NCBI GenBank assembly: GCA_002381615.1
Contig: DFWY01000027.1
Span: forward strand, 1 to 60,574
Length of the DNA stretch: 60,574 nucleotides
Reading direction: 5' to 3'
DNA from: Polaromonas sp. UBA4122
GTDB taxonomy: Bacteria > Pseudomonadota > Gammaproteobacteria > Burkholderiales > Burkholderiaceae_C
The notes under the pieces were generated by a model that saw nothing but the letters and a program-made list of their open reading frames with translations, was not told the DNA's origin and searched no databases. Below are positions 4,892 through 54,755 of the stretch, in pieces. Position 1 is the first letter of the stretch. Each line of letters starts with the position of its first letter. The translations under genes and the position numbers were made by a program.

Positions 4892-4952
4892 TCTTTTATG
4901 GCTCTAGACCACTGAATACGGGCGCATGCAGCTATTGAATTGATAGCATTTA
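4892..4952 (+). repeat. Dispersed about 60-bp repeat (family A), forward copy
   Basis: It contains TTTTATGGCTCTAGACC, then CGGGCGCATGCAGCTAT and TTGATAGCA. The same pattern recurs at 21853-21912, 42629-42696 and 54440-54500 in this orientation and elsewhere inverted. It lies just after the Bug-protein stop codon. A copy in the opposite orientation follows at 5002-5064, so together they form a large imperfect inverted repeat between two convergent genes. Confidence 0.7.
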
Positions 4953-5001
4953 ACCTGGCTGACATGCCGGGTCTCGCCGTGGCTTTCCAGCAAAGTGAGC
5001 C

Positions 5002-5064
5002 GCTACAAAATCAATAGCTACTCAGGAAGACAAAACGGGAGCTAGAGCCCTAAAGCACTTAAAA
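5002..5064 (-). repeat. Dispersed about 60-bp repeat (family A), inverted copy
   Basis: It reads GCTACAAAATCAATAGCTA, then GGGAGCTAGAGCCC and a T/A-rich end on the plus strand, the reverse complement of the family pattern. It abuts the livF stop codon at 5065. Confidence 0.65.
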
Positions 5065-5781
5065 CTACTCGCCCAAATAAGCCGCGCGAACCCGCGGATC
5101 GTTGAGCAATTCTTTGGCGTCGCCGTTCATGGTGACGTTACCCGACTCCATGACATAGCCCCGGTTCGCAATGCCTAGCGCGCGGCTGGCGTTTTGCTCA
5201 ACGAGCAGGATGGTCACGCCGCGCGCAGAGACGTCGCGCACCACCTCAAAAACCTTGTCCACCATGATGGGCGACAGCCCCATGGACGGTTCATCGAGCA
5301 GCAACACCTTGGGTCGGCTCATCAGCCCGCGGCCCATCGCCAGCATCTGCTGCTCACCGCCGGACAGGGTACCCGCCAACTGGTCCTTGCGCTCACGCAG
5401 GCGCGGGAACAGCTCAAACATCTTCTCGATGTCGGCGGCTATTTCCTGCTTGTCGTTGCGGATATAGGCGCCCATCTTCAGGTTTTCGGCAATGGTCATG
5501 CGGGTGAACACACCGCGGCCCTCAGGCACCATGGCCAGACCTTCTTTCACCAGATCCCATGCACCGCGGCCCCTGATGCTTTTGCCCAGGTATTCGATGT
5601 CACCCTCCAGCATCGGCAGAGTGCCGGTAATGGCTTTCATGGTGGTGGTTTTGCCGGCGCCATTGGAGCCGATCAGGGTCACCAGTTCGCCCTCGTTGAC
5701 TTCAAAGTCAATGCCCTTGACCGCCTGGATGCCGCCGTAGGCCACTTTGAGGCCCTTCACTTTAAGCAGTGTGTTTGCCAT
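5065..5781 (-). CDS. livF: Branched-chain amino acid ABC transporter ATP-binding protein LivF
   Basis: One of two cytoplasmic ATPases that drive uptake of branched-chain amino acids or related compounds. Walker A is GSNGAGKTTTMKAI, the signature motif is LSGGEQQMLAMGRGL, Walker B is VLLLDEPSMGL, and the H-loop region follows (LLVEQNASRAL). At 238 residues it has normal LivF length. It is last in the minus-strand order livH-livM-livG-livF and lies 52 nt after livG. No periplasmic binding protein (LivJ/LivK) is in the cluster, so substrate specificity cannot be read here. Confidence 0.93.
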   Translation of the reverse strand: MANTLLKVKGLKVAYGGIQAVKGIDFEVNEGELVTLIGSNGAGKTTTMKAITGTLPMLEGDIEYLGKSIRGRGAWDLVKEGLAMVPEGRGVFTRMTIAENLKMGAYIRNDKQEIAADIEKMFELFPRLRERKDQLAGTLSGGEQQMLAMGRGLMSRPKVLLLDEPSMGLSPIMVDKVFEVVRDVSARGVTILLVEQNASRALGIANRGYVMESGNVTMNGDAKELLNDPRVRAAYLGE

Positions 5782-5833
5782 TGTTATTTCCTTGCGGGAT
5801 AGACCTTTAGCTCTGCCCCCAACTGTTTAAGAC

Positions 5834-6601
5834 TCAATGACCTGTGCCCAGATAGGCGGTAATCACTTTTTCGTTTTTCTGCACGTCGGCGGGCGCCCCT
5901 TCGGCAATCTGCTTGCCGTAGTCGAGCACGGTCACGCGGTCGCACAGGCCCATGACCAGTTTCACGTCGTGCTCAATCAGCAGGATGGTGCGGTTGTCCT
6001 TGCGGATCCGGTCTATCAGTTCGCGCAGTTGCACTTTTTCAGTGGCGTTCATGCCGGCGGCCGGCTCGTCCAGCGCAATCAGCTGTGGATCGGTGGCGAG
6101 CGCCCGGGCGATCTCCAGACGTCGCTGGTCGCCATAGCTCAGTGTCCGCGCCTTGAAGTCGGCGTACTTGCCGATGCCCACGTAATCCAGCAACTCCTGG
6201 GAACGCTTGGCAATGGCGGCTTCTTCCTGCTTGAAGCCCGGGGTGCGAAAAACCGCGCCCAACAGGCCCGAGTAGGTACGTATGTGGCGACCAACCATCA
6301 CGTTCTCAAGTGCCGTCATGTCCGCAAACAGGCGGATGTTCTGAAAGGTGCGGGCAATGCCCGCTTTGGCCACTTCATGCACCGCCGTGGGCTTGTAGGG
6401 CTTGCCGGCCAGTTCAAACGTGCCACTGTCCGGCGTATAAAGGCCGGTCAGCACATTGAAGAACGTGGTTTTGCCGGCACCGTTGGGGCCAATCAGGCCA
6501 TAGACCTGTCCGCGCTGAATATGAATACCCACATCGCTGAGGGCCTGCAAACCGCCAAAGCGTTTGGAAACACCGGCAACTTTAAGAATGGTTTCGCTCA
6601 T
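5834..6601 (-). CDS. livG: Branched-chain amino acid ABC transporter ATP-binding protein LivG
   Basis: The second ATPase of the transporter. Walker A is GPNGAGKTTFFNVL, the signature is LSYGDQRRLEIARAL and Walker B is LIALDEPAAGM. The long C-terminal portion (IRKDNRTILLIEHDVKLVM, then VLDYGKQIAEG) is typical of LivG. ATG 6601 is preferred to ATG 6607 because an AAGGAG site stands 7 nt upstream of 6601 but only 1 nt from 6607. The gene starts 11 nt after the livM stop, so the two are translated as one operon. Confidence 0.92.
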   Translation of the reverse strand: MSETILKVAGVSKRFGGLQALSDVGIHIQRGQVYGLIGPNGAGKTTFFNVLTGLYTPDSGTFELAGKPYKPTAVHEVAKAGIARTFQNIRLFADMTALENVMVGRHIRTYSGLLGAVFRTPGFKQEEAAIAKRSQELLDYVGIGKYADFKARTLSYGDQRRLEIARALATDPQLIALDEPAAGMNATEKVQLRELIDRIRKDNRTILLIEHDVKLVMGLCDRVTVLDYGKQIAEGAPADVQKNEKVITAYLGTGH

Positions 6602-6612
6602 GTCCATTCTCC

Positions 6613-7698
6613 TTAGCTTTTAATGGGCTTGACCAACGACTTGCCGTGCTCTGACGAGGGCCACAGACCGCGCGGACGCATCAGCATGATGATGATCATG
6701 GCCAGCGCAATCAACAGCTGGCGCAAGATGGCAGAGTCCAGCCGGCCATCGGTCATGGCCTGCAGCGGCCCAGCCACATAGCGCAGCACCTCCGGCAGCG
6801 CTGCCAGCATCAGCGCGCCCAGAATCACGCCGGGCAAATGGCCGATGCCGCCCAACACCACCATGGCCACAATCATGATCGACTCCATCAGGCTGAACGA
6901 CTCGGGGGAGACAAAACCCTGGAAGGCCGCAAACATCGAACCCGACACGCCGCCAAACGTGGCACCCATGCCGAACGCCAGCAGCTTCAGGTTGCGGGTG
7001 TTGATGCCCATGGCCTTGGCGGCAATTTCGTCTTCACGAATCGCCATCCAGGCACGGCCGACGCGTGAATTTTCCAGCCGGTGGCAAATGATGACCGAAA
7101 CGATCACTAACGCCAGAAAGAGGTAGTAGTACATCGAGACCGAGGTGACCTCAAACCCGAAGAATTGATGGGACTTGCCCAGATCGAGGCCAAAAAACTT
7201 CATGGAGTCGATTTGGTTGATGCCTTTGGGTCCGTTGGTCAGGTTGATCGGACGGTCCAGGTTGTTCAGGAACACCCGGATGATTTCACCAAAGCCGAGC
7301 GTCACGATGGCCAGGTAGTCACCGCGCAGCTTGAGCGTCGGCGCGCCCAGCAACACACCAAACAGCCCTGCCACCGCGGCAGCGACCGGAATGGTGGCCC
7401 AGATCGGCAGATGCAGGCCATTGGGAAAGGCCGCTGCAATGGACGGAAAGGCTTCTGCCAGATGGGGCGAGCCGAGCAGCGCAAACAGATAGGCACCCAC
7501 CGCGAAAAATGCAACATAGCCCAGGTCCAGCAGACCGGCGTAGCCGACCACAATGTTGAGCCCGAGCGCCAGCATCACATAGAGCAGCGACATGTCCAAA
7601 ATGCGTACCCAGGCGTTGCCGCCTTGCTGCAGCAACAGAGGCAGCACCAGCAGCGCGGCTGCGGCCATTAAAAAAGTAAGCAGTTTGTTGGGTTTCAT
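6613..7698 (-). CDS. livM: Branched-chain amino acid ABC transporter permease LivM
   Basis: A polytopic inner-membrane permease with many hydrophobic helices. It carries LivM landmarks: ALGLNIVVGYAGLLDLGY near residue 45, LRGDYLAIVTLGFGEI near 125, and GGIGHLPGVILGALM near the C-terminus. Length is 361 residues. An AAGGAG site lies 8 nt before the ATG at 7698. It pairs with LivH to form the translocation path. Confidence 0.92.
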   Translation of the reverse strand: MKPNKLLTFLMAAAALLVLPLLLQQGGNAWVRILDMSLLYVMLALGLNIVVGYAGLLDLGYVAFFAVGAYLFALLGSPHLAEAFPSIAAAFPNGLHLPIWATIPVAAAVAGLFGVLLGAPTLKLRGDYLAIVTLGFGEIIRVFLNNLDRPINLTNGPKGINQIDSMKFFGLDLGKSHQFFGFEVTSVSMYYYLFLALVIVSVIICHRLENSRVGRAWMAIREDEIAAKAMGINTRNLKLLAFGMGATFGGVSGSMFAAFQGFVSPESFSLMESIMIVAMVVLGGIGHLPGVILGALMLAALPEVLRYVAGPLQAMTDGRLDSAILRQLLIALAMIIIMLMRPRGLWPSSEHGKSLVKPIKS

Positions 7699-7757
7699 CA
7701 GAATTTCTCCTTAACTCTCAGCGGGGTATCGGCTTGAACAGCAGCGCAAGGGCAGGC

Positions 7758-8687: not shown

Positions 8688-8945
8688 AACTCTCTCCATT
8701 TGATTGAAATTGCCAACTCCGCTTGGCGACCGCGAACCAATGGGATCACCACGGGATCACGCGAGTTAACAAAAAGCCCGCCTGTCCAAGCCAGATAACT
8801 GGCGTGCATGGCGAGCTGATTCGCGAATTGTAGCCACGCCGCTCAAGCGAGAATCGGGCCAACGTAGCGGTTTTCGCGGGGTTTACCCTTGCGAAATTTT
8901 ATTTCTTCGGCCGAATCGGGCTTTATCAGCAGCTTTTGTTTTTCA
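8688..8945. other. Intergenic region, presumed livHMGF promoter
   Basis: About 258 bp with no supportable gene. It must hold the promoter of the leftward livHMGF operon and the 3' end of the rarA transcript. I see no convincing rho-independent terminator. Confidence 0.4.
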
Positions 8946-10253
8946 TTAGTTTTTCTGGTTGTTCTTTAATTTCAACTCATTCAACTTATCGGAAATCCTG
9001 ATCTCCAGGCCGCGGTTGACGGGTCGGTAAAACCCGGGCGTAGCCATGCCTTCGGGGAAATAATTTTCACCCGCGGCAAAACCGTCTTCTTCATCGTGGG
9101 CGTAGCGATAGTTTTTGCCGTAATCCAGCTCTTTCATGAGCCGGGTTGGCGCATTGCGTAAATGCAGGGGCACCGGGCGCGTGCCGTCTTTCTTGATGAA
9201 GGCCTTGGCTTCATTGAACGCCTTGTACACCGCGTTGGACTTGGGCGCAACGGCCAGATAGACCACACATTGGGCCAGCGCCAGCTCACCTTCCGGTGAA
9301 CCCAGCCGTTCATAGACCTCGGCGGCATCCAGCGCCAGCCGCAATGCGCGCGGGTCGGCCAGCCCGATGTCTTCGCTGGCCATGCGAATGAGCCGACGCG
9401 CCATGTACCGGGGCTCCGCACCGCCATCGAGCATGCGCATGAACCAGTAGAGTGCAGCATCAGGGTCGGAACCGCGCACGGATTTGTGCAGCGCCGAAAT
9501 GGTGTCGTAAAACTGCTCGCCCCCTTTGTCGTAGCGGCGCAGGCGCTCGCCCAGCACCTTGAGCAACCAGGCGTCGGTCACCTCGGTGATCTTCTCGCTG
9601 CGAGCCGCCACGTTGAGGGATTCCAGCGTATTGAGCAGACGCCGGGCATCGCCGTCAGCGTAGGCAATCAGCCGTTCAACGGCCTCATTTGCTATTTTTT
9701 CGATAGCTGGTAGCGCACGTTCCACAAGGACCTTGGCTATTATTTGCTTAAGATCAACCTCTGAAAGCGGTTGTAGCACATACACCACGGCGCGCGACAG
9801 CAGGGCCGAATTGACTTCAAACGAGGGGTTTTCCGTGGTGGCACCAATAAAGGTAAACAGGCCGCTTTCCACATGCGGCAAAAAGGCGTCCTGCTGGCTT
9901 TTGTTGAAGCGGTGTACCTCATCAACGAATACGATGGTGCGCTTACCACTCCCATCGCCCTGCCCTTGCCAGACGGTGGCCTGCTCGACCGCTTCGCGAA
10001 TGTCCTTGACGCCACCGAGCACGGCTGAAATGGTGATGAAGTGCGCATCAAAACTGCTGGCCATCAGACGGGCGATGGTGGTTTTTCCCACGCCGGGCGG
10101 GCCCCACAAAATGCAGCTGTGCGGCTGGCCCGACTCAAACGCGATGCGCAGCGGCATGCCGCCCCCCAACAAATGCTGCTGGCCGACGACTTCGCCCAAG
10201 CTCTTCGGGCGCAGGCGCTCGGCCAGGGGTGAGTGGGTGACGGACGCGTCCAT
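8946..10253 (-). CDS. rarA: Replication-associated recombination protein A (RarA/MgsA), AAA+ ATPase
   Basis: RarA acts at stalled replication forks and single-strand gaps. The protein opens with APLAERLRPKSLGEVVGQQHLLG-like sequence, followed by Walker A GPPGVGKTTIARLM, Walker B IVFVDEVHRFN, sensor GATTENPSFEVN and RRLLNTLE. The C-terminal tetramerisation part contains RGSDPDAALYWFMRML and GSPEGELAL. From ATG 10253 the product is 435 residues, normal for RarA; an AAGGA site lies 4 nt upstream. ATG 10277 is an alternative. A family A dispersed repeat lies inside the gene at 9689-9750 and codes for the loop before the domain that ends in ADGDARRLL. In relatives rarA often follows lolA directly. 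Here HiPIP and transposase DNA separate them. Confidence 0.93.
   Translation of the reverse strand: MDASVTHSPLAERLRPKSLGEVVGQQHLLGGGMPLRIAFESGQPHSCILWGPPGVGKTTIARLMASSFDAHFITISAVLGGVKDIREAVEQATVWQGQGDGSGKRTIVFVDEVHRFNKSQQDAFLPHVESGLFTFIGATTENPSFEVNSALLSRAVVYVLQPLSEVDLKQIIAKVLVERALPAIEKIANEAVERLIAYADGDARRLLNTLESLNVAARSEKITEVTDAWLLKVLGERLRRYDKGGEQFYDTISALHKSVRGSDPDAALYWFMRMLDGGAEPRYMARRLIRMASEDIGLADPRALRLALDAAEVYERLGSPEGELALAQCVVYLAVAPKSNAVYKAFNEAKAFIKKDGTRPVPLHLRNAPTRLMKELDYGKNYRYAHDEEDGFAAGENYFPEGMATPGFYRPVNRGLEIRISDKLNELKLKNNQKN
9689..9750 (-). repeat. Family A dispersed repeat inside rarA
   Basis: The pattern TTGCTATTTTTTCGATAGCT, then GGTAGCGC...CAAGGACC and a final TTGGCTATTATTTGCTT matches the inverted family A copy. 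It lies in the rarA frame without a stop. Confidence 0.6.
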
Positions 10254-10277
10254 ACCGTCCTTGCTCGCAGGTGTCAT

Positions 10278-11060: not shown

Positions 11061-11204
11061 CATCTGACGCGCCTGGTTTGCTGATTGCAGCAGCGATTGT
11101 GGAGGTCAGGCTGATCTTCTCAGTCGCCGTGACTCCGTCAATTTTCAAGGTTTCGCCGCAGAAATGAGCCCGCGTCAGGCTTGAAGGCTCCAAGCAATGC
11201 CTCT

Positions 11205-11432: not shown

Positions 11433-11444
11433 AAAGCGCTTCTA

Positions 11445-12110
11445 TCACTGCCTGATCACATCCGCCCCCTTGGGCGGTTTGAACTGAAAAGTGTCCGCTG
11501 GAAGATTCGGGTTGACCTCCACCTTGCTGAAGCTCAGCATCGAACGCTGGCCAAAGCTGTCGAGAATTTCCAGCGCAGCCAGTTCAGTCGATTTTCCGGC
11601 GGACTTGTCACTTGCTTGGCCCGCGCGAAAACCCACGCGCACAGCCTGCAGCTGGCCATCTTTGGCCTTGGGCGTAGCCACCACCCATTGCAGGCCGTCC
11701 TTGTCAGGTGCGGCTGCCAGGATAAAGTCAGCCTGCAGGGCTCGCAGGTCGGGCGCGGCGGCAATCAGGGCTGCGGGGGTGGAGCCCAGAGCGCTGGATT
11801 GCTTGCGCGCGGTCACCTGGTTCAGGTCTGCGTCGTATAGCCATAGCGTCTGGCCGTCGGCCACGATGCTTTGCTCGAAGGGCTTTTTGTAGATGAACCT
11901 GAAGCGGTTGGGCCGGGAAAACGCAAACGTGCCACTCGATGTCTTGCTGCGCGTGCTCTGGCCTTCCTTGGCCGGAGCAGTGACCACCTGGGTGAACTCC
12001 GCGCGGCCGCTACTCACCGTTTTCACGAATGTTTCAAGACTTTCCAGGCCATTGGCCCTTGCAGACAGGACGCATCCAGCTATTAAAAAAGTAGCAAGCA
12101 GATTCTTCAT
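11445..12110 (-). CDS. lolA: Outer-membrane lipoprotein carrier protein LolA
   Basis: A periplasmic chaperone that ferries lipoproteins from the LolCDE complex to the outer membrane. The N-terminus MKNLLATFLIAGCVLSARA is a signal peptide. The mature part shows the LolA pattern FVKTVSSGRAEFTQVV, then GTFAFSRPNRFRFIYKKPF and LWLYDADLNQVTAR, and a final strand TFQFKPPKGADVI. ATG 12110 has a GGAG site 8 nt upstream, which overlaps the end of ftsK, so the two genes are translationally linked. A partial family A repeat (12062-12100) overlaps the signal-peptide codons. Confidence 0.93.
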   Translation of the reverse strand: MKNLLATFLIAGCVLSARANGLESLETFVKTVSSGRAEFTQVVTAPAKEGQSTRSKTSSGTFAFSRPNRFRFIYKKPFEQSIVADGQTLWLYDADLNQVTARKQSSALGSTPAALIAAAPDLRALQADFILAAAPDKDGLQWVVATPKAKDGQLQAVRVGFRAGQASDKSAGKSTELAALEILDSFGQRSMLSFSKVEVNPNLPADTFQFKPPKGADVIRQ

Positions 12111-12115
12111 GAAAT

Positions 12116-15342: not shown

Positions 15343-16311
<969 letters not shown>

Positions 16312-18650: not shown

Positions 18651-19904
18651 TCAAACTTTTTGCCACACTGCCGCAAAAAACCCATCAGTCTGGTGCAGGT
18701 AAGGCCAGAGCCTGAGGTAGGGGCCGCGGCAAAGTGTTTCGGCCTTTTCCACTCCCAGATGGGTCAACAAAGGCCCAACTTCAAGCAGGTTGAAATCTTT
18801 ATTTGCGGCGCTGAAAGCCTCAGCAATCGCCTCATTCTCTTCGCGCAGGATGCTGCAAGTGGCGTAAACCAGCCGTCCACCGGGCTTCAGAAGGCGTGCG
18901 GCGCTCTGCAAAATGGCGGTTTGCTTGGCCGTGAGCTCTTCAATCGCCTTGGGGCTTTGCCGCCATTTCAGGTCAGGATTGCGCCGCAAGGTGCCCAGCC
19001 CCGAGCATGGCGCATCCACCAGCACCCGGTCGATCTTGCCTGCCAGACGCTTGATGCGGTCATCGCGTTCATGCGCAATGGCCACCGGATGGACGTTGGA
19101 CAAGCCGCTGCGCGCCAGCCGCGGCTTGAGGGCCGCCAGCCGGTGGCCAGAGGTGTCAAAGGCATACAGTCGCCCGGTATTTCGCATGGCGGCGCCAATT
19201 GCCAGCGTTTTACCGCCCGCGCCAGCACAAAAGTCCACCACCATTTCGCCGCGTTTGCCATCGACCAGCAGGGCCAGCAACTGCGAGCCTTCGTCCTGCA
19301 CTTCAATGGCACCGCGCGTGAAAGCGTCCAGCTTGCCGAGTTGCGGTTTGTCCACCAGCCGCAGACCCCAGGGCGAATACGGTGTTGCTACCGTTTTAAT
19401 AGCTGACTTGGCAAGTTCCTTCTGTACTTCAGCCCGTTTATCTTTCAAGGTATTGACGCGCAAGTCCAGGCCCGCAGGGGCATTGAGGCTTTCGACCAGC
19501 GGCCAGAAGTCGTCTCCCAACTGCTCTTTGAGGGGCTCTACCAGCCATTGCGGCAGGTTGTGGCGGTGCAGTTCCATCAGATCCGAGGGTTTGACCTGGT
19601 CACAGCGGGCCAGCCAGTCTTGCTCCTGATCGGTCAGCGCACTCAGCAAGAAATCGCGTTCGGCAGCGAAACCCAGAATCGCCAGGCGCCGCTCCGGCGG
19701 TCCACTGCCATGCTGGGCCAGGTAGGTGAAAAGCGATTTTTTGCGCAGCACGGTGTAAACCGTTTCAGCCAGCGTGGCCCGCTCGCGGGGTCCGAGACGC
19801 AACTCGCGAAAATAGCGCGACAACACCATGTCGGCGGGGTGGTCAAATTTGAGAACCTGCTTGAGTAGCTCGGAACAACTGTCTAGTAAGGCTTTAGGAT
19901 GCAT
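18651..19904 (-). CDS. rsmB: RsmB/NOP-family rRNA (cytosine-C5) methyltransferase
   Basis: A SAM-dependent m5C RNA methyltransferase. An N-terminal helical NusB-like region precedes the catalytic domain, which has SAM motif VDFCAGAGGKTLAIGA. It has both active-site cysteines of the family: DAPCSGLGTLRRNPD and YATCSILREENEAI. It is placed in the RsmB group by fold and length (417 residues), but RsmF-like alternatives cannot be excluded. The ATG at 19904 begins MHPKALLDSC. A family A repeat lies inside the gene at 19385-19448. Confidence 0.87.
   Translation of the reverse strand: MHPKALLDSCSELLKQVLKFDHPADMVLSRYFRELRLGPRERATLAETVYTVLRKKSLFTYLAQHGSGPPERRLAILGFAAERDFLLSALTDQEQDWLARCDQVKPSDLMELHRHNLPQWLVEPLKEQLGDDFWPLVESLNAPAGLDLRVNTLKDKRAEVQKELAKSAIKTVATPYSPWGLRLVDKPQLGKLDAFTRGAIEVQDEGSQLLALLVDGKRGEMVVDFCAGAGGKTLAIGAAMRNTGRLYAFDTSGHRLAALKPRLARSGLSNVHPVAIAHERDDRIKRLAGKIDRVLVDAPCSGLGTLRRNPDLKWRQSPKAIEELTAKQTAILQSAARLLKPGGRLVYATCSILREENEAIAEAFSAANKDFNLLEVGPLLTHLGVEKAETLCRGPYLRLWPYLHQTDGFFAAVWQKV
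19385..19448 (-). repeat. Family A dispersed repeat inside the RsmB-type gene
   Basis: TTGCTACCGTTTTAATAGCTG and a following CTTCAGCCC...TCTTT half match the inverted family A pattern weakly to moderately. It codes for a linker before the catalytic domain and keeps the frame. Confidence 0.45.
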
Positions 19905-20235: not shown

Positions 20236-21852
<1,617 letters not shown>

Positions 21853-21912
21853 TGTTTTATGGCTCTAGCCCAATAAAGGCGGGCGAGATAAGCTATTATT
21901 TTTATAGCAAAT
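21853..21912 (+). repeat. Family A dispersed repeat after prfC
   Basis: The clearest copy: TTTTATGGCTCTAGCCC, then GGCGGGCGAGATAAGCTAT and TTTTTATAGCA. It starts directly at the prfC stop codon and fills most of the gap to the convergent purN, a position that could let it act as a 3' end element. Confidence 0.75.
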
Positions 21913-21949
21913 AAACCAGGCACCCCAAGCAGAGACGGGTCGTCAAAAA

Positions 21950-22552: not shown

Positions 22553-23236
22553 ATGAGATCCCTCACACCGATAGAAGCCCGCGTGCTGGCCACCTTGATG
22601 GAAAAAGCCCGCACCGTGCCCGACAGTTACCCGCTGTCGCTCAACGCCTTGCTGCTGGGCTGCAACCAAAAAACCAGCCGCGACCCAGTGATGGAAGTCA
22701 CCGAGGCCCAAGCCCAAGCGGCGATTGACGCGCTCAAAGCCCTGAGCCTGGCGTTTGAAGCCAGTTCCAGCCGTGTGCCGCGTTTTGAGCACAATTTTCA
22801 GCGCGGCTTGCGGGTGAGCGAGCCGCAGGCGGTACTCCTGGGTTTGCTCATGCTGCGCGGGCCGCAAACGCCCGGCGAGCTGCGCACCAACAGCGAGCGT
22901 TGGTACAAATTTTCCGATATCGCCAGCGTGGAAGACGCTTTGGCCGAACTGAAAGCCCGCAGCGAAGACGGCGGCGCCGCCATGGTGGCACACTTGCCTC
23001 GGGCCGCTGGCATGAGGGAGCAGCGCTGGGCACATTTACTCTGCGGCGATGGGCTATTAGCCTCCCTTCCGCACATCGGCACTAGCGATGACGCTATCAA
23101 TTCTGAAGCTGAGCCGATTTCTTTGGGCCAGGCCGAACGCCTGGAGCAGCGCATTGAAACCCTGGAAACCCAGGTCTTGCAGCTTCAAGGCCAGCTGGCC
23201 CACTTGCAAAAAGAGCTGGGCTTGTCTCAAGCCTGA
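22553..23236 (+). CDS. YceH/UPF0502-family (DUF480) protein
   Basis: It begins MRSLTPIEARVLATLMEKA and contains ALLLGCNQKTSRDPVM and LRGPQTPGELRTNSER, hallmarks of the DUF480 family of paired winged-helix domains. The biochemical role is unknown. The last 40 residues are a predicted coiled coil (ERLEQRIETLETQVLQLQ). Divergent from purN by 18 bp. A family A-like segment at 23049-23108 codes for the variable link before the coiled coil. Confidence 0.85.
   Translation: MRSLTPIEARVLATLMEKARTVPDSYPLSLNALLLGCNQKTSRDPVMEVTEAQAQAAIDALKALSLAFEASSSRVPRFEHNFQRGLRVSEPQAVLLGLLMLRGPQTPGELRTNSERWYKFSDIASVEDALAELKARSEDGGAAMVAHLPRAAGMREQRWAHLLCGDGLLASLPHIGTSDDAINSEAEPISLGQAERLEQRIETLETQVLQLQGQLAHLQKELGLSQA
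23049..23108 (+). repeat. Family A-like repeat inside the yceH-like gene
   Basis: The segment ATGGGCTATTAGCCTCCC, then CGGCACTAGCG and CGCTATCAATTCTGAAGC follows the forward family A order but is more diverged than the other copies. Confidence 0.4.
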
Positions 23237-24479: not shown

Positions 24480-25595
24480 ATGAATTTCGATTTTACGGAC
24501 GACCAGGAACAACTGCGCGACGCGGTACGCAAGTGGGTTGACAAAGGCTACAACTTCGAACGCCGCCGCAGCATTGCCAAGGCGGGCGGATTTTCACGCG
24601 AGGCCTATGGCCAGCTGGCCGAATTGGGCCTGGCGGGCCTCTACATCCCCGAGGCGCAAGGCGGACTTGGCATGGGGCCTGTGGAAGGCATGGTGGTGAT
24701 GGAAGAACTCGGGCGCGGCATTGTGCTGGAGCCTTTCGCCCAGACGCTGATGGCTGGCGCCGTGCTCTCTGGCTACGCACCGGAGGCTGTCCAGGCAGCC
24801 TGGCTGCCAAAAATAGCCTCGGGCGAAAGCCTGGTGGTGCTGGCTTACCAGGAGCGCGCCGCACGCTACAAATTCGAAATTTGCGAAGCAAAAGCGACTC
24901 TAGCCCAAGATACATGGGCGCTAAGCGCTACAAAAAGCATAGTGCACGCCGGTGACCAGGCAGATGCTTTCATGGTGCCAGCCATGATTAACGGCAAGAT
25001 GGCGCTCTTTCTGGTCGAGCGCACAGCAGCAGGCGTGGCCACCCGCGGCTACGGTACGCAAGATGGCGGCCGGGCTGCAGAAGTGACGTTCAAGGAGGCA
25101 CTCGCCAGCCTGATCACCCTGGAAGGCTTGACAGCTCTCGCCCATGCCATTGACATCGGCATCGCCGCCTCCTGCGCCGAAGCCGTCGGGGTGATGGACA
25201 AGACGCTCAGCATCACGGTGGAGTACATGAACACCCGCAAACAGTTTGGTGTGGCCATCAGCAGCTTCCAGGCACTGCGTCACCGCGTGGCCGACATGAA
25301 AATGCAGCTGGAACTGGCCCGCTCCATGAGCTACTATGCGTCGCTCAAACTCAATGCGCCGGCAGAAGAGCGCCGCCGCGCCCTGGCCCGCGCCAAATAC
25401 CAGTTAGGCGTCTCCATGCGTTTTGTGGGCCAGCAGGCCGTGCAGCTGCATGGCGGCATTGGCGTGACCGACGAATACATCGTGAGCCACTACTTCAAGA
25501 AGCTCACCCAGCTTGAGATGACGTTTGGCGACACGCTCCATCACTTGGGCGAGGTATCCAGGCAGATGCAGGACACGGCAGGCGTGTTTGCATAA
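24480..25595 (+). CDS. Acyl-CoA dehydrogenase, pimeloyl-CoA dehydrogenase small-subunit type
   Basis: Begins MNFDFTDDQEQLRDAVRKW and contains GLAGLYIPEAQGGLGMG, YMNTRKQFGVAISSFQALRH (an FAD/CoA segment) and VQLHGGIGVTDEYIV. It matches the PimD-like partner of the preceding gene and probably forms a heteromer with it. Family A sequence at 24883-24944 lies in the middle of the frame (coding from CEAKATLAQD to SATKSIV) without breaking it. Confidence 0.85.
   Translation: MNFDFTDDQEQLRDAVRKWVDKGYNFERRRSIAKAGGFSREAYGQLAELGLAGLYIPEAQGGLGMGPVEGMVVMEELGRGIVLEPFAQTLMAGAVLSGYAPEAVQAAWLPKIASGESLVVLAYQERAARYKFEICEAKATLAQDTWALSATKSIVHAGDQADAFMVPAMINGKMALFLVERTAAGVATRGYGTQDGGRAAEVTFKEALASLITLEGLTALAHAIDIGIAASCAEAVGVMDKTLSITVEYMNTRKQFGVAISSFQALRHRVADMKMQLELARSMSYYASLKLNAPAEERRRALARAKYQLGVSMRFVGQQAVQLHGGIGVTDEYIVSHYFKKLTQLEMTFGDTLHHLGEVSRQMQDTAGVFA
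24883..24944 (+). repeat. Family A dispersed repeat inside an acyl-CoA dehydrogenase gene
   Basis: GAAGCAAAAGCGACTCTAGCCC, given in parts as GCAAAAGCGACTCTAGCCC, then ATGGGCGCTAAGCGCTACAA and AAAGCATAGT. It keeps the reading frame. Confidence 0.55.
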
Positions 25596-27516: not shown

Positions 27517-30345
27517 ATGACAGAAAAAGTCGATTACCGCCAAACACTGAACCTGCCCGAAACCCCCTTCCCCATGCGCGGCGACCTGCCCAAGCGCGAG
27601 GCGGGCTGGGTCAAGGAGTGGGAAGACCAGGGGCTTTACAAAAAACTGCGCGAGGCGCGCTGCGGCGCAGTGAAGTTTGTGCTGCACGACGGTCCGCCGT
27701 ATGCCAACGGCAGGATCCACATCGGCCACGCCGTCAACAAGATTCTGAAAGACATGATCGTCAAGGCGCGCCAGCTCAAGGGGCTGGACGCCATTTATGT
27801 GCCGGGCTGGGACTGCCATGGCCTGCCGATTGAAAACGCCATTGAAAAGCTGCATGGGCGCAACCTGCCGCGCGATGAAGTACAAGCCAAGAGCCGCGCC
27901 TTTGCCACCGAGCAAATTGTGGGGCAGATGGCCGACTTCAAACGCCTGGGCGTGCTGGGCGAATGGGACAACCCCTACCGCACCATGGATTTCGGCAACG
28001 AAGCCAATGAAATCCGCGCGCTCAAACGCATCATGGAACGCGGCTTTGTATACCGTGGTCTGAAACCCGTGTACTGGTGTTTCGACTGCGGCTCGTCGCT
28101 GGCCGAATTCGAGATCGAATACGCCGACAAGAAATCCCAGACGCTGGACGTCGGCTTCAAATGCGCCGAGCCCGAAAAGCTGGCAGCAGCTTTTGGATTG
28201 TCCAGCCTTGCCAAAGACGCCTTTGCCGTGATCTGGACCACCACCGCGTGGACCATTCCGGCCAACCAGGCGCTCAACCTCAATCCCGAACTTGAGTATG
28301 CACTGGTCGATACCGAACGCGGCCTGCTTCTATTGGCGGCCGTGCTGGTGGACAAGTGCCTGGAACGCTACCAGCTCACTGGCCAAGTGCTGGCGACCAC
28401 GCATGGCAAACACCTGGCGCTGCTGAACTTCATGCATCCGCTGTATGACGTGGACGCCGGCTATCGGCGCTTCAGCCCGGTGTTTCTGGCCGACTACGCC
28501 ACCGCCGACGACGGCACGGGTATCGTGCACTCCTCGCCCGCTTATGGGGTGGAAGACTTTAACTCCTGCGTGGCCAATGGTATGGCCTATGACGACATCC
28601 TGAACCCGGTGCAGGGCAATGGCCGCTATGTGGACGACTTACCGCTGTTTGGCGGCCTCAACATCTGGAAAGCCTGCCCCGTCGTCATTGAGACGCTGCG
28701 CGAGCACGGGCGCCTGTTTGCCACCGACAACATCGTTCACAGCTACCCGCACTGCTGGCGCCACAAGACGCCGGTGATCTACCGCGCAGCGGCCCAGTGG
28801 TTCATCCGCATGGACGAAGAAACATCGGGCACCCAGGGCGTGTTCACCAAGGACAAGGCCGGCAAAACGCTGCGCCAGCTGGCTTTGGCCGCGATCGAGG
28901 AAACCCGCTTTTATCCCGAAAACGGCAAAGTGCGCTTGCGCGACATGATCGCCGGCCGGCCCGACTGGTGCATCAGCCGCCAGCGCAACTGGGGCGTGCC
29001 GCTGCCCTTCTTCATCCACACCGCCACGGGCGAATTGCACCCGCGCACCATGGAAATCATGGACCAGGCGGCCGACATGGTGGAAGCTGGTGGTATCGAG
29101 GCCTGGAGCAAGGCGAGCGCTGAATCCATCATCGGCGCTGATGCCCCCGACTACATCAAAAGCACCGACATTCTCGACGTGTGGTTTGACTCTGGAACCA
29201 CGCATGACCACGTCCTCCGGCACAGCCACGCGGCGCAGTCGACCTGGCCGGCTGACCTGTACCTGGAAGGCCACGACCAGCACCGCGGCTGGTTTCACTC
29301 GTCGCTGCTCACGGCTTGCGCGATGTATGACCATGCGCCCTACAAAGGCCTGCTCACCCATGGCTTCACTGTTGACGGCAAAGGCCGCAAGATGAGCAAG
29401 AGCGAGGGGAATGTCGTGGCGCCACAAGAAGTCAGCGACAAGCTCGGTGCCGAAATCATCCGCCTGTGGTGCGCGTCCACCGATTACTCGGGCGACCTGG
29501 GCATTGACGACAAAATTTTGGCCCGCGTGGTCGACGCCTACCGCCGCATCCGCAATACGCTGCGCTTTCTGATGGCCAACGTGAGCGATTTCGACCCCGC
29601 CCAGGACGCGGTACCGTTTGACGAGATGCTGGAGATCGACCGCTACGCGCTGAGCCGTGCGGCGCAACTGCAGGCCGACATCCTGGCGCACTACGAGGTG
29701 TATGAATTTCATCCGGTCGTCTCCAAACTGCAGATTTACTGCAGCGAAGACCTGGGGGCTTTTTACCTCGACATCCTGAAAGACCGGCTCTACACGACGG
29801 GTCCCAAGTCGCTGGCACGGCGCAGCGCGCAAACAGCGCTGCACGCGATCACGCATGCCATGCTGCGCTGGATGGCGCCGTTTTTGAGCTTTACCGCCGA
29901 AGAGGCTTGGAAGATTTTCGGCCAGTCGGAGTCCATCTTTCTGGAAACCTACGCCGAACTTCCCGCGCCCGATGCCGCCCTGCTGGCCAAGTGGTCACGC
30001 ATTCGCGAAATCCGCGATGCGGTCAACAAAGACATCGAAGCCTTGCGGGCCGACGGCAAGGTGGGCTCGTCGTTGCAGGCCAACCTGATACTGGCCGTGC
30101 CGTCCGACGACCACGCGCTGCTGGCCAGCCTGGGCCATGATCTGAAGTTTGCATTCATTACATCTGCTATTGATTTGATAGCTGGAAGCACCCTTCAATC
30201 AAGCGTTAGTACCAGTTCAGCCACAAAATGCGAGCGCTGCTGGCACTACCGGGACGACGTGGGCATTGACCCCGCTCACCCCACGATTTGCGGCCGATGC
30301 ACCAGCAACCTGTATGGCGCGGGTGAAGACAGGAAGTTCGCGTAA
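27517..30345 (+). CDS. ileS: Isoleucyl-tRNA synthetase
   Basis: Class Ia synthetase charging tRNA-Ile. The HIGH motif is [13 protein letters not shown] and the KMSKS motif is [12 protein letters not shown]. The editing domain and anticodon-binding domain follow. The C-terminal zinc knuckle is [12 protein letters not shown]...CGRC. Length 942 residues is normal for the bacterial type. Family A repeat sequence at 30164-30230 codes for the linker just before the zinc knuckle (including [13 protein letters not shown]) without breaking the frame. The stop overlaps the lspA start by one base. Confidence 0.97.
30164..30230 (-). repeat. Family A dispersed repeat inside ileS
   Basis: CTGCTATTGATTTGATAGCTG, given in part as GCTATTGATTTGATAGCTG, then AAGCACCCTTCAATCAAGCG and GCCACAAAATG. 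It matches the inverted family A pattern well and lies in an essential gene. Confidence 0.7.
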
Positions 30346-41590: not shown

Positions 41591-42339
41591 CGCGCCAGCA
41601 CCACAGCGGTGATATGTGCAGCACCGGCCTCCCGCAGGGCCTGCGCCGCTGTAAACAGCGAGGCGCCGCTGGTCATCACGTCGTCCACTAGCACCACGCG
41701 TCGGCCCTCCAGCTCGGCAACGCGCAGCGGATCGACCTGGAAGGCACCCTTGACATTGGTCAGTCGGGCCTCGCGTTTGAGCTGGCTCTGCGGACGGGTG
41801 TGTTTGACGCGTAGCAGCAGCTGGGCATCAGGATTGGCCCTGGTCTGCGTTTGCCGGGCCAGCGCGCTGGCCAACTCCCAGGCCTGGTTGAATCCGCGGG
41901 TCTGCAGGCGTTCGGCCGACAGCGGCAGCGGAACCACCCAGTCTTTGACATCCAGATCGGCAAACACCTGCAGCACGCCGGGCGTCTTGAGCAACAAGGC
42001 TGCAAAAAAAGCAGCCCAACCGTGCTGCTCGCCAAATTTGTAACTGGCAATCAGGGTGGACCACGGGTAGGCATAGGGCACTGCCGCCAGCGCCCTGTCC
42101 AGCGGCGGCCGCTGGCGCGCGCAGGCAGCGCAAAGATCGGGGCCAGCCCTGAGGCCCATGGATAAATCGGCGGGCAAGGCCAGCGCGCAATGGTCGCAGC
42201 GAGGCTGCACCGTCGCAAAGCGCGCCTCGCAGGGCTGGCACACCTGGCGCGCTGGCCAGCTGCGGCAAACGGCGCACTGACTGGCAAAGCCGGGTAGCCG
42301 GGGCAGGAATAAACCAGGGGAAAGCAGGCGGGTGAACAC
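41581..42339 (-). CDS. comF: ComF-family amidophosphoribosyltransferase-like protein
   Basis: The N-terminal zinc region has cysteines as CAVCRSW, CQPCEA, CDHCAL and CAACAR. The C-terminal PRTase domain has the PRPP loop VVLVDDVMTSGASLFTAA. Required for DNA uptake in some bacteria; in others its role is unclear. The GTG start at 42339 gives 252 residues. The 3' end overlaps the flanking repeat block by about 10 bp. Confidence 0.88.
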   Translation of the reverse strand: MFTRLLSPGLFLPRLPGFASQCAVCRSWPARQVCQPCEARFATVQPRCDHCALALPADLSMGLRAGPDLCAACARQRPPLDRALAAVPYAYPWSTLIASYKFGEQHGWAAFFAALLLKTPGVLQVFADLDVKDWVVPLPLSAERLQTRGFNQAWELASALARQTQTRANPDAQLLLRVKHTRPQSQLKREARLTNVKGAFQVDPLRVAELEGRRVVLVDDVMTSGASLFTAAQALREAGAAHITAVVLARTQ

Positions 42340-42413: not shown

Positions 42414-43313
42414 ATGACCACCACCCAGCGCCCGCCCACACTTGATCCGCTCGCCGTCAGCCGCTGGCAGCGCACGGCGCCGCTTGCCTCACCGTGGCTC
42501 CATGAAGAAGTGGCAAACCGCATGCTTGACAGGTTGCAGTGGATCAAGCTGAAGCCGCAAGCGTGGGCGCACTGGGGCGCCGTGCGCGGCGGTCTGCAGG
42601 CCCATGCGAAATTGGCCACCATGTATCAAAATTCAGCATGTTTTGTGGCTGAATCCCATACAGGACGGGCACAAGCAGCTATAAAACATATAGCAAAACC
42701 GTGGTGGAACCCTAAGCAATGGAGGGCAGTTCCCACTCGCTTTGAGACGCCACCACCGGCCAGTGTGGACATGCTGTGGGCCAACATGGCCCTGCACGAA
42801 TCGGCCGACCCGCAAGCCCTGCTGGCCGAGTGGCACCAAGCGCTGAAGGTTGACGGGTTCCTGATGTTTTCATGTTTGGGGCCCGATACTGCCCGGGAAT
42901 TGCGCGACATTTACGCCCAACTGGGCTGGCCTCCTGCGGGGCATGAGTTGACCGACATGCACGACTGGGGCGACATGCTGGTGCAAACCGGCTTTGCCGA
43001 ACCGGTGATGGACATGGAGCGCATTACGCTGACCTATGAGACGCCAGCGCGGCTGTTGCATGAACTCGCTGAACTGGGCCGCAACTTTCATCCGGCGCGC
43101 TTTCCTGCCCTGCGCGGCCGTCAGTGGAAGGCGCGGCTGGAGCAGGCGCTGGTTGAGCATCTGACAGGCCAGGATGGTCGACTGTCGCTCACCTTTGAAG
43201 TGATTTACGGCCACGCGCTCAAGGCACCCCCCAAAATCAGGATCAGCGCGCTCAGCGCGGTGTCAGTGGCGGACATGCGCAGCATGCTGCAGGGGCAGCG
43301 GCCGCACGCCTGA
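42414..43313 (+). CDS. BioC-like methyltransferase-domain protein
   Basis: The first 20 residues (LDPLAVSRWQRTAPLAS) and the later part (LHESADPQALLAEWHQALKVDGFLMFSCLG, shown here as LAEWHQALKVDGFLMFS) resemble malonyl-ACP O-methyltransferase BioC. The SAM-binding loop is unusual (AHWGAVRGG in place of D-x-G-x-G-x-G). The stretch after it is coded by a family A repeat (42629-42696, giving HTGRAQAAIKH), so the canonical acidic residue after beta-2 may be altered. Activity is therefore uncertain. Divergent from comF by 74 bp. Confidence 0.7.
   Translation: MTTTQRPPTLDPLAVSRWQRTAPLASPWLHEEVANRMLDRLQWIKLKPQAWAHWGAVRGGLQAHAKLATMYQNSACFVAESHTGRAQAAIKHIAKPWWNPKQWRAVPTRFETPPPASVDMLWANMALHESADPQALLAEWHQALKVDGFLMFSCLGPDTARELRDIYAQLGWPPAGHELTDMHDWGDMLVQTGFAEPVMDMERITLTYETPARLLHELAELGRNFHPARFPALRGRQWKARLEQALVEHLTGQDGRLSLTFEVIYGHALKAPPKIRISALSAVSVADMRSMLQGQRPHA
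42629..42696 (+). repeat. Family A dispersed repeat inside the BioC-like gene
   Basis: TTCAGCATGTTTTGTGGCTG, then CAGGACGGGCACAAGCAGCT and ATAAAACATATAGC. It follows the forward family pattern closely and keeps the reading frame. Confidence 0.7.
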
Positions 43314-48515: not shown

Positions 48516-48534
48516 CTGTTGATCCTTATGTTTT

Positions 48535-48756: not shown

Positions 48757-48774
48757 GAACCAGATTATCTGCCC

Positions 48775-50252: not shown

Positions 50253-50303
50253 TCGTTTAAAAGCCAGTCGTCTAAAAGACCTTCGTCGCTCATCTTTCAC
50301 ACC

Positions 50304-52387: not shown

Positions 52388-53022
52388 AGACCCGACCCAC
52401 ACGACTCACGCTGCCCAGCCGCAGGCTCATTGTCAAATCAATGGCTGGCGCTGTGGCTCTCACCATGACTGCCGGGCTTTTGACGGCCTGCACGCCGGAC
52501 AAGCCACAGTTCAAGAGCATTGACCTGACCGGTGCCGACTACGCGCAGGGCTTTTCCCTGACTGACCACAACGGCCAGGTGCGCACGCTCAAGGACTTTG
52601 CCGGCAAGGTGGTGGTGGTGTTTTTTGGCTACACCCAGTGCCCTGATGTCTGCCCAACAACCATGGCCGAACTGGCGCAGGTCAAGCAGTTGCTGGGGCC
52701 TGATGGCGACAAGCTGCAGGGGATATTCATCACGGTCGACCCCGAACGGGACACGCCGGAACTGCTCAAAGCCTATATGGGCAATTTTGACGCCTCTTTC
52801 CTGGCGCTGCGGCCCACCATGGCCCAGTTGCCAGAAGTCGCCAAAGACTTCAAGATTTATTACAAAAAAGTCGATGGGGAAACGCCGGGCAGCTACAGCA
52901 TGGACCACTCGGCGGGTAGCTATATCTTTGACGGCAAAGGCCGCATTCGTCTGTACACCCGCTACGGTAGTGGCGCTGAAGCGCTGGCATCCGACATCCG
53001 GCTGCTGCTCAAGAACACCTGA
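52384..53022 (+). CDS. SCO1/SenC-family copper chaperone
   Basis: A lipoprotein-like N-terminus (MTAGLLTAC) anchors a thioredoxin fold. Copper ligands are [16 protein letters not shown] (CxxxC) and the His in [12 protein letters not shown]. It delivers copper to the CuA site of subunit II. Last gene of the oxidase operon; overlaps cyoE by 4 nt. 212 residues from ATG 52384. Confidence 0.94.
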
Positions 53023-53062
53023 TACGTCACATCGCCGGTTTTGCAGTTGCAAGACGGCCATG

Positions 53063-53094
53063 AAAAAGGCCCGCACCTTTCAGGGAGCAGGCCT
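53063..53094 (-). terminator. Rho-independent terminator after rpoH
   Basis: On the minus strand AGGCCTGC pairs with GCGGGCCT (8 bp, one G-U) around a 12-nt loop, followed by TTTTTC. It lies about 90 nt past the rpoH stop. Confidence 0.75.
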
Positions 53095-53181
53095 GCTTGC
53101 ATGGCGGCATGCAAGAAAAGAAGCAGATGAGCGCACGGGAAGGGCCGCGTGAATCGCAACCCTCCCGCTCAGGCAGCCATC

Positions 53182-54138
53182 TCAAGCGTAGCTTGCCAGC
53201 ACCTTTTTCATCTTCTTCATGGCCGCCACTTCAATCTGGCGAATGCGCTCGGCGCTCACCTTGTACTCGGCGGCCAGATCGTGCAGCGTCTTGCCGCCCG
53301 AGCCATCGTCGTTGACCTTGAGCCAGCGTTCTTCCACAATGCGGCGCGAACGCGCGTCCAGGTCTTCCAGCGCGGCGGAGATGCCGTTGCTGGCCAGGTT
53401 ATCCCGCTGGCGCGACGCCATCAAAGCCGTCGGCTCCTGTGTGGCGTCGGCCAGGTAGGCAATCGGGCCAAAGACATCTTCACCGTCGTCGCTGGGGCTC
53501 GGGTCCAGCAGCACGTCGCCGCCTGACATGCGCTGCTCCATCTCGATGACTTCCTCACGCTTGACGTTCAGCGTTTTCGCCATCGAGTCAATCTGGCCTT
53601 CGGTCAGCGTATCGCGGTGCGTCGCCACATCGGCATCGTCCTTGAAACCCTGCTTCATCGAGCGCAGGTTGAAAAACAGCTTACGCTGGGCCTTGGTGGT
53701 GGCCACCTTGACCATGCGCCAGTTTTTCAGGATGTACTCGTGAATCTCGGCCTTGATCCAGTGCATGGCGTAGCTGACCAGGCGCACGCCCTGATCGGGA
53801 TCAAAACGTTTGACCGCCTTCATCAGGCCAATGTTGCCTTCCTGGATCAGGTCGCCGTGAGGCAGCCCATAGCCCAGGTATTTGCGGGATATCGACACCA
53901 CCAGACGCAAGTGTGAGAGCACTAACTTACCGGCTGAGTCAAGATCGTTGTTGTCTCTCAGATTTTTGGCAAATTCCTGTTCCTGCTCCAGGGTGAGCAT
54001 AGGCAGGCGGTTGACCGCCGAGATATATGCGTCCAGGTTGCCCAATGGAGGAATCACCGACCAGGGATTGACGGTGGCCAAGGCACCGGTGGGGACAACG
54101 GGAGCAACCATGGCTTTGGGGGAAAGAGTGTGTGACAT
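53182..54138 (-). CDS. rpoH: RNA polymerase sigma-32 factor (heat shock)
   Basis: Region 2 has LVLSHLRLVVSISRKYLGYGLP and DLIQEGNIGLMKAVKRFDP (shown as DLIQEGNIGLMKAVKRF), then YAMHWIKAEIHEYILKNW, typical of RpoH. The RpoH box QRKLFFNLRSMK follows. Region 4 ends with AAEYKVSAERIRQIEVAAMKKM, shown as VSAERIRQIEVAAMKK. 318 residues. It is transcribed towards the cox operon. Heat-shock control of translation through 5' mRNA structure is known for this gene but not evident here. Confidence 0.95.
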   Translation of the reverse strand: MSHTLSPKAMVAPVVPTGALATVNPWSVIPPLGNLDAYISAVNRLPMLTLEQEQEFAKNLRDNNDLDSAGKLVLSHLRLVVSISRKYLGYGLPHGDLIQEGNIGLMKAVKRFDPDQGVRLVSYAMHWIKAEIHEYILKNWRMVKVATTKAQRKLFFNLRSMKQGFKDDADVATHRDTLTEGQIDSMAKTLNVKREEVIEMEQRMSGGDVLLDPSPSDDGEDVFGPIAYLADATQEPTALMASRQRDNLASNGISAALEDLDARSRRIVEERWLKVNDDGSGGKTLHDLAAEYKVSAERIRQIEVAAMKKMKKVLASYA

Positions 54139-54755
54139 AGCAGAACTCCTTTTCTCTAATCTTTAATGTTAGCAGTCTGTTAGAGAGAGTGCCAAGCAAT
54201 AGGTTCAATGGCTTTGATAGAGGCAGGCTAATTCACACGACCTCAAGCCGATTTAGTTTAGGTTCTGATCCTGCGCTTTAGTTCAGCGGGTGTTTGTAGG
54301 AAAAACAGCAGAAGCTGCGGCGTCAAATATCCCTTGAAGGCTTCATGGTCACTTTTTTGACCAGCCGCCAGACCTTCCAGGGATGGAAAAGCTCAGGCGT
54401 CCGGCCCTGCCGATACCTTCAAAACCGCCAGAATTTATGAAAAAAGAGGCTTTTATCCAATAACTACGGGCGCAAGCAGCTATTAATAAAGTAGCAATTT
54501 CGGTGGCTTTCAGGGCATTTCAGGCCACCTGAGCCGGCACCCGGACCAGCGCTTGCCCGGCCAGCCAGGCCTGCAGGCGCTCCGTCTGCCCCGCTACAAA
54601 GCTGCTGATGCTCGCATTGCACAGGGCAATCAGGGACTTGGAAATCCCTGTGCTCCCCCAGTGCGGTGTTGCACGCTATCTGGCACATAAAACCGCGTTT
54701 ATTTGTGCCATCAAGCATGCAACACCACACTAGAATGCCCTACAACGGAGGGGGA
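54139..54755. other. Intergenic region before the restriction locus
   Basis: About 617 bp. It holds the rpoH promoter region, a family A repeat at 54440-54500 and, on the minus strand at about 54521-54620, a protein-like C-terminus (SSFVAGQTERLQAWLAG) without a start, which I do not recognise. The last 100 bp should hold the promoter of hsdR. No other gene is supported. Confidence 0.45.
54440..54500 (+). repeat. Family A dispersed repeat upstream of hsdR
   Basis: AAAAAGAGGCTTTTATCC, then CTACGGGCGCAAGCAGCTAT and AATAAAGTAGCA follow the forward family pattern. Confidence 0.7.

Follow-up and report, generated by a model that had tools for sequence, protein, structure and literature searches.

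A dispersed 55 bp recognition motif of Polaromonas sp. UBA4122 as a candidate DNA uptake sequence

Repeats that reach high copy number in bacterial genomes are of several described kinds. Repetitive extragenic palindromic elements (REP/REPIN) are abundant, have palindromic parts and often follow genes; REPs are extragenic and tied to the gene for a REP-associated tyrosine transposase (RAYT). Rickettsia palindromic elements are palindromic repeats found in open frames without stops, as in-frame insertions that lengthen the proteins. The repeat described here is a motif of about 55 bp found throughout a 60,574-nucleotide stretch of DNA of Polaromonas sp. UBA4122 (GenBank assembly GCA_002381615.1, contig DFWY01000027.1, positions 1 to 60,574, forward strand; 'the window'), whose family, judged from named relatives, is the Comamonadaceae. 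Sequence comparison indicates that at almost all coding sites tested the motif is changed in place, not inserted. With slightly more confidence than doubt, we read the repeat as a genome-wide recognition motif, most likely the DNA uptake sequence of naturally transformable Comamonadaceae.

In Haemophilus influenzae and the Pasteurellaceae the uptake signal sequence (USS) is present in hundreds to thousands of coding and intergenic copies, evolved by point mutation rather than insertion, is under-represented in acquired DNA and combines a core with A/T tracts that have shape effects and are described as rigid and slightly bent (PMC7811141); the present motif resembles it in copy number, location, change in place, scarcity in acquired DNA and A/T tracts. 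It differs from the USS in its unrelated sequence, its other host family and its extent (55–75 bp with two dyads, against a 9 bp core and two tracts), and a role in uptake is assigned to it by analogy. The DNA uptake sequences (DUS) of the Neisseriaceae share with it a high copy number, a core-genome bias, lineage dialects and stop-codon limits on the reading frame (PMC3630211, PMC2397512), but are 10–12 bp long; their receptor ComP is established, whereas here the ComP_DUS family fails to separate motif-rich from motif-poor genomes. DUS are reported often to arise by recombination rather than by point mutation (PMC2397512).

The motif differs from REP/REPIN elements in that about 30% of its matches fall within genes, changed in place, that genomes lacking it can still have RAYT-like genes, and that no hairpin is kept by pairing (no compensatory change in five predicted pairs). 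Six Comamonadaceae genera were looked for by word search in a survey of REPs (PMC3733652), which does not mention them. Unlike in Rickettsia palindromic elements, no element-sized lengthening was seen at 16 of 17 sites.

The repeat family in the window and its genome

The 11 segments listed in the original prediction were aligned, and window segment 4885–4960 was used as a blastn query against the window's own genome (G000; 4,169,319 bp in 172 contigs, the window being contig 133), giving 40 matches at E <= 1. A covariance model (R1) and a 55-column matrix were both built from the same 26 oriented G000 copies, among them the window copies at 4885 and 21846. Since all training copies were traced from one window copy, divergent dialects are under-counted. 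Using cmsearch, R1 recovered ten distinct window sites, all at E <= 0.0011:

4885..4960, + strand: intergenic copy between convergent genes (3' ends); cmsearch R1 E 4.8e-22; training copy
4989..5064, - strand: intergenic copy in the orientation opposite to copy 4885; cmsearch R1 E 1.1e-6
9678..9753, - strand: rarA copy, sense, encoding ...ALPAIEKIA; cmsearch E 9.6e-13; MgsA_C/AAA (Pfam)
12032..12108, + strand: lolA copy over the N-terminal (signal-peptide) part, antisense, with a weak left half; cmsearch E 6.1e-7; LolA (Pfam) from residue 34
19374..19449, - strand: rsmB/F-type rRNA methyltransferase copy, sense, encoding SAIKTVA; cmsearch E 2.5e-6
21846..21921, + strand: intergenic copy between convergent genes; cmsearch E 7.6e-18; training copy
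24881..24956, + strand: acyl-CoA dehydrogenase copy, sense; cmsearch E 0.0011
30153..30228, - strand: ileS copy, antisense, in the linker that precedes the zinc finger (residues 904–930, Pfam); cmsearch E 1.5e-9
42632..42707, + strand: BioC-like methyltransferase copy (frame 42414–43313), sense, encoding AAIKHIA; cmsearch E 7.9e-14
54433..54508, + strand: intergenic copy upstream of a type I restriction system; cmsearch E 2.4e-16

These are ten of the 11 segments listed; the remaining one (23049–23108, yceH-like) gave no R1 match up to E 10 and is placed outside the family. According to Pfam and the frames, six of the ten copies lie in open frames (rarA, lolA, rsmB-type, acyl-CoA dehydrogenase, ileS and BioC-like methyltransferase) and bring no stop codon into frame; those at 4885, 4989, 21846 and 54433 are intergenic. 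A dispersed family of about 60 bp within unbroken housekeeping genes, as predicted, is borne out by the covariance model and the frames, and the ileS copy does lie in the linker ahead of the zinc knuckle. Seven in-frame copies without stops had been counted; the absence of stops holds for six, the seventh (23049) being the non-member.

At a score of >= 12 the matrix gave 11 matches in the window and 0 in one Markov resample of it; the eleventh match (57072-, within hsdR), with a cmsearch E of 9.7, is weak and was left out of the count. The link CGGGCGCAAGC alone, with up to two mismatches, was not enriched (57 in the window versus 59.7 expected): the enrichment belongs to the whole arrangement. 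A scan of every 5 bp dyad with 3–12 bp spacing, blind to the motif, ranked GCTAT-N7-ATAGC first, with 37 occurrences in 391 kb of own DNA and 34 in a closed congener (G130), against 0.1 expected in each. Maximal-order Markov k-mer enrichment left the motif undetected even in motif-positive genomes, in which the spaced-dyad scan detected it.

In G000, R1 gave at least 150 copies, all at E <= 1.8e-11, from the best 150 of 1466 candidates scored. In 453 kb of own DNA (the window and 20 stretches) 84 distinct copies were counted, which extrapolates to ~775 per genome; in G130 (4,507,493 bp) there were 64 in 400 kb, extrapolating to ~720. Matrices refined on each set were used for these two counts. 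With the unrefined matrix, G130, which lies outside the training set, gave 61 matches at a score of >= 12, with 0 in one Markov resample per set. The density is roughly 1.6–1.9 copies per 10 kb of sampled chromosome, in both orientations. Predicted genes contain 26/88 own and 20/66 G130 matches, in both senses, these lists containing four and two palindromic duplicates, respectively; genes were called with our own hexamer-based caller, the starts of which are unreliable, and late starts put the lolA and BioC copies outside genes. The single stop-free frame, reading Ala-Ile-x-x-Ile-Ala or similar, is the one used by the sense copies (10/10 own, 7/9 G130).

Change in place and scarcity in acquired DNA

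Orthologues of the window genes were compared in motif-rich, motif-poor and motif-free congeners. The motif-free congener G013 yielded 0 matrix matches over 400 kb, its best score being 1.2, and has no dyad of similar strength (z at most 7.4 versus 45). The rsmB site is of equal length without the motif in G013, G018, G023 and G041, and also in motif-rich G004; the ileS site likewise in G013, G018 and G041, and also in motif-rich G010. In the acyl-CoA dehydrogenase gene the motif is present in 6/6 motif-rich genomes compared and absent at equal length in G041 and G018, while G013, also lacking the motif, is 21 bases shorter. In rarA it is again present in 6/6 motif-rich genomes compared and absent at equal length in motif-poor G041. 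The rarA site of G013 and G018 is 4 to 15 bases shorter, depending on the alignment; this comparison was set aside and G041 used because in the tree the RarA of both (L109, L113) falls with that of Burkholderia, as would be expected had their gene been exchanged for another. Motif-free orthologues of the BioC-like site in G041, G018 and G023 show a net length change of 0. For lolA, relatives without the motif are 27 to 168 bases longer, in a region that is highly variable and not cleanly alignable.

Motif-free relatives encode identical or similar residues by different codons. The rsmB copy of the window, for example, encodes AIKTVA as GCT ATT AAA ACG GTA GCA, where G023 has GVKSAA as GGC GTC AAG AGC GCT GCC. 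In the second half-site of rarA and the dehydrogenase gene the rare Ile codon ATA, which makes up 5.6% of the 5721 Ile codons sampled from the own genome, is found in 6/6 motif-rich genomes. At fourfold-degenerate sites of four genes conservation was in the expected direction but not significant (P 0.38, just six core sites). These codon differences, together with the lack of matches in G013, argue against ordinary protein conservation as the source of the repeat, an outcome that the prediction had left open. Its suggestion that the repeat had overwritten rather than lengthened the dehydrogenase gene holds as regards length, given equal-length motif-free orthologues for rarA, rsmB, ileS and the dehydrogenase; 'changed in place' is the better wording, the residues often matching those of motif-free orthologues.

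For a wider test, 21 of 37 coding segments were searched for in the motif-free or motif-poor genomes G013, G018, G023, G041 and G005, 20 further stretches were added and all 37 segments were aligned against 50 loci. The test concerns coding sites; intergenic flanks would not align across genomes. Spanning alignments were obtained for 17 further coding sites in 57 comparisons, and 16 of the 17 showed no element-sized difference. Net length changes were 0 in 30 comparisons; -1 in two, -2 in three, -3 in five, -4 in two and -5, -6 and -7 in one each; +1 in three, +2 in four and +3 in one; and -18 in four. Thus, 53/57 lie between -7 and +3. This alignment superseded a cruder count, restricted to 49 comparisons that showed little spill-over, in which 22 changes were 0, four were -18 and the others lay between -10 and +15.

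Acquired DNA was compared with chromosome in G024, which consists of one 4.41 Mb contig and eight small contigs of 353 to 6 kb; this genome was used because 0/87 genus genomes contain the Rhodoferax ferrireducens plasmid stretch. Two copies were counted in 435 kb of small contigs, for which 67 would be expected at the density of the large contig (52 copies over 340 kb; Poisson P 3e-26); the seven other than C4 hold 0 copies in 355 kb. Ten proteins from seven small contigs were typed by family and include an integrase on C1, a defence-type ABC-3C component on C2, a Tn5-type transposase on C3, two metabolic enzymes on C4, one protein without a family on C5, an MmeI-type restriction enzyme on C6 and a relaxase on C8. 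From these the small contigs are taken as probably plasmid-like, least securely for C4. No copy was found in 250 kb of the R. ferrireducens plasmid or in 50 kb of a Polaromonas plasmid part, both counts being of plasmid DNA alone. Blastn with the consensus, an insensitive search, gave one weak match on a Delftia plasmid (E 0.02) and none in phages, and the equally insensitive search for the exact motif pattern in viral sequences gave 0.

The window itself contains type I restriction genes at 54666–59734 (HsdR with EcoEI_R_C, HsdS with Methylase_S domains); they hold at most one weak copy (57072), which is consistent with motif-poor acquired DNA. Within this cluster lies a 103-base direct repeat (57536–57638 and 58197–58299; 93% identical, 661 bases apart), and immediately before it two abutting 36-base arms that are 78% complementary (54660–54731).

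Equal-length orthologues and near-absence from small contigs speak against an ancient non-autonomous mobile element of the REP/REPIN, miniature inverted-repeat (MITE) or Rickettsia-palindromic-element type, inserted and then eroded. Such an origin would suit the long ordered motif, its high copy number, intergenic enrichment and palindromic parts, a coding site differing by exactly 18 residues in 4/5 motif-free or motif-poor genomes, head-to-head pairs in one Comamonas metagenome-assembled genome (MAG) and the slightly raised number of similar pairs among own copies. We nevertheless consider it improbable: empty sites, near-identical copy families and plasmid insertions were not seen where examined, a long form without the motif exists in G041 at the 18-residue site, the copies are in other respects what independent sampling of a single motif would give, and hairpin covariation is lacking.

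A genome-encoded RAYT-type transposase, which the prediction had proposed as a check, gives no help to that explanation. RAYT-like Y1 transposase frames occur in motif-free G007, G013, G022 and G023 as well as in motif-rich congeners, and the own RAYT-like locus (3.3 kb) has no core-dyad copy within 1.5 kb of the gene. Transposition by a RAYT/IS200 system was rejected because presence of the gene does not follow motif abundance.

Motif architecture and distribution among genomes

Over about 55 bp the motif consists, in order, of an A/T tract, a GGCTCTAGCCC-like block, a CGGGCG-like block and GCTAT-N7-ATAGC. Its information (~50 bits in the small training set) is spread over at least 55 columns and is strongest in the 17 bp dyad. 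Weaker conservation was observed upstream in columns -14 to -2 (TTT, then AAG, with GATT before it in several genera), which suggests that the motif extends to about 75 bp.

Pair covariation in both dyads did not exceed z 2.8 for any of about 50 pairs tested per genome. The A/T tracts show strong neighbour dependence (z 14.9 and 23.9 for columns 1–2), AAAA, TTTT, AAAT and ATTT being interchangeable. The combination of dyads without covariation and neighbour-dependent A/T tracts points to a reader that would be a protein recognising duplex DNA by its shape, rather than to a folded strand.

A signal acting in RNA, chiefly at the 3' ends of genes and serving as terminator, attenuator or hairpin for processing, would suit the hairpin predicted in the right half and the location of most intergenic copies after gene ends. 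That hairpin, from RNAalifold, is one helix of five pairs with no compensatory change, and the conserved tail reads ATAGCA, not a run of T. Rfam gave no match at the window copies, a tRNA being its sole match in the window. In tandem spaces 33 copies have the same orientation and 24 the opposite one, and antisense copies lie within genes. The RNA hairpin was rejected as a candidate on the helix, covariation and Rfam results, and an RNA-level role is judged very improbable.

Copies appear to be independent draws from one motif with little or no genealogy, the mean nearest-neighbour identity being 0.731 in the own set (n = 56) and 0.748 in G130 (n = 42), against 0.728 and 0.751 for independent draws. 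The consensus of G000 differs from that of G130 at columns 26, 27 and 29, and in Comamonas loci the copies, judged by eye, diverge further. In an uncultured Comamonas (locus L192), head-to-head motif pairs were observed at 2592-/2643+ and 8657-/8708+, 51 bases apart, having in common a GGATTTCA...TGAAATCC-like dyad.

Counts across genomes are lower bounds, obtained from the best-scoring candidates of each genome, and many of the genomes compared are incomplete. Among 25 genomes of the window's genus, its own included, 16 have at least 106 matches (with an upper limit of 117 per genome), one has 45, one eight, one four, two have one and four have none; abundance thus spans ~700 to none within one genus. 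In the window's family at least 112/299 genomes and at least 58/126 genera have a match (best 16 candidates per genome); in other families of the order 0/16 genomes do. Named genomes were reached via RarA loci, 26 being chosen from 80 and the best 150 candidates scored in each, and 11/26 have matches. At least 150 are found in Polaromonas sp. 39-63-25, Burkholderiales REEB401 and groundwater MAG 750, followed by Rhodoferax 340R (at least 148), MAG co117 (at least 135), Rhodoferax MAG_33 (at least 92), Comamonas badia (at least 55), an uncultured Comamonas (at least 32), Comamonas terrae (at least 30), Rhodoferax C15 (at least 27) and Variovorax OK212 (at least 12). Zero matches were found among the best 150 candidates in Variovorax J22P168, Hylemonella, Limnohabitans T6-5, Pseudorhodoferax, Lampropedia, Ramlibacter rhizophilus and Allofranklinella, and in eight named genomes from other families. 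In a RarA tree with 34 rows, at least four changes of the motif label are needed, three of them forced by starred branches; the alignment includes the motif columns, and 'rich' denotes at least 27 matches in the named-genome scan or high counts in the genus scan.

Chromosome-organising proteins bind sites such as matS, SlmA sites and KOPS, and the main rival to an uptake sequence is a site of this kind or of a nucleoid protein, with many spread copies kept by ordinary selection. It would account for a motif of duplex type that has A/T tracts and a pair of dyads, for its location on the chromosome rather than on small contigs, for the bias to gene 3' ends and for a spacing more even than random (coefficients of variation 0.80 and 0.71 versus 0.97 and 0.96; P 0.019 and 0.006). 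Of the 400 kb sampled from G130, no part without a copy is longer than the first 35 kb (C1:1-35200). The swing from none to hundreds within a genus, with G013 at none in 400 kb, would be odd for a core function; no clustering was seen over 17 chromosomal slices, and bias towards the G-rich strand was not significant (32/32 in G130; 31/20 in G024, P 0.16). To our knowledge, chromosome-organising sites are short, and a 55 bp site at ~700 places is unlike them. We regard this rival as unlikely, while giving it more weight than the mobile element or the RNA signal.

The uptake reading and its meaning

A DNA uptake sequence is favoured because it is the only class known to us that matches all of the features: high copy number, tolerance in genes, change in place, scarcity in acquired DNA and dialects, the USS moreover having shape-sensed A/T tracts. 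On this reading, the uptake machinery of the type IV pilus would have a surface that binds duplex DNA and prefers the motif, so that self DNA bearing better copies would be taken up and recombined more often. Mutation and recombination would build up copies, by molecular drive, until gene function sets a limit, and copies would decay once the preference is lost or changed.

Several observations weigh against this reading. At 55–75 bp the motif is far longer than known uptake-sequence cores (9–12 bp), and because it has no such short core it is described here as working like DUS/USS rather than filed as a proven member. Neither ComEC nor ComP_DUS discriminates, each being present irrespective of motif abundance: ComEC is found in 23/26 genomes, motif-free and motif-rich alike, the genomes without it (G002, G011 and G020) are motif-rich, though 79–87% complete, and a ComP_DUS-type pilin is found in 18/18 motif-rich and motif-free genomes. 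Own copies number 24 per 51 convergent spaces against three per 51 divergent (one being the BioC copy), and G130 copies 15 per 36 against five per 51, a 3'-end preference that would be equally expected from a terminator or nucleoid role.

Other such points concern insertion. At one coding site, the source of all four -18 values, 4/5 motif-free or motif-poor genomes lack 18 residues; it lies at position 41994 of the L127–L131 block (G130), in a motif-bearing linker of a large and presumably oxidase-like protein. Since motif-poor G041 keeps the long form without the motif, a variable linker explains this site as well as an insertion does. A linker site in what is presumably MetG, outside the 17 sites, varied by -10 to +15 residues in the cruder count. 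The pairwise-identity variance of own intergenic copies is 0.077 versus 0.067 simulated (0/300 simulations as high) and the top own pairs are slightly more alike (0.818 versus 0.788, s.d. 0.014); G130 shows neither excess. Three other own Y1 loci (L031, L032 with L036, and L033), apparently of IS200 type, do have copies within their 3 kb loci, where about 0.6 copies per 3.3 kb are expected by chance; and both small-contig copies of G024 lie on C4, whose plasmid nature is weakest.

An uptake sequence would fit what is described of transformation in this family. Verminephrobacter eiseniae is naturally transformed by means of type IV pili, and a large excess of foreign DNA inhibits this by no more than about tenfold; Acidovorax temperans was transformed by DNA of its own species alone, and the authors proposed sequence specificity, with no sequence named in the excerpt (PMC4212676). 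As of 2020, strong sequence-biased DNA uptake had been reported in just two families (PMC7811141). A search of open-licence papers found no uptake sequence and no such repeat for Comamonadaceae. We give about an even chance to the Comamonadaceae being a third family with a self-DNA uptake watermark, which would have evolved independently as a long structured motif read as shaped duplex DNA.

If so, gain, dialect change and loss within genera would let the theory of uptake drive be tested outside animal-associated bacteria, and congeneric motif-rich and motif-free pairs would be useful in studying the spread and decay of marks of this kind. The self-preferring transformation of Verminephrobacter and Acidovorax (PMC4212676) could be explained by a third origin, among environmental bacteria that are widespread; such an origin could also predict partners in gene exchange and give a handle for transforming these bacteria. 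Whatever protein reads the motif, the in-place reshaping of coding sequence that is indicated at many sites calls for explanation.

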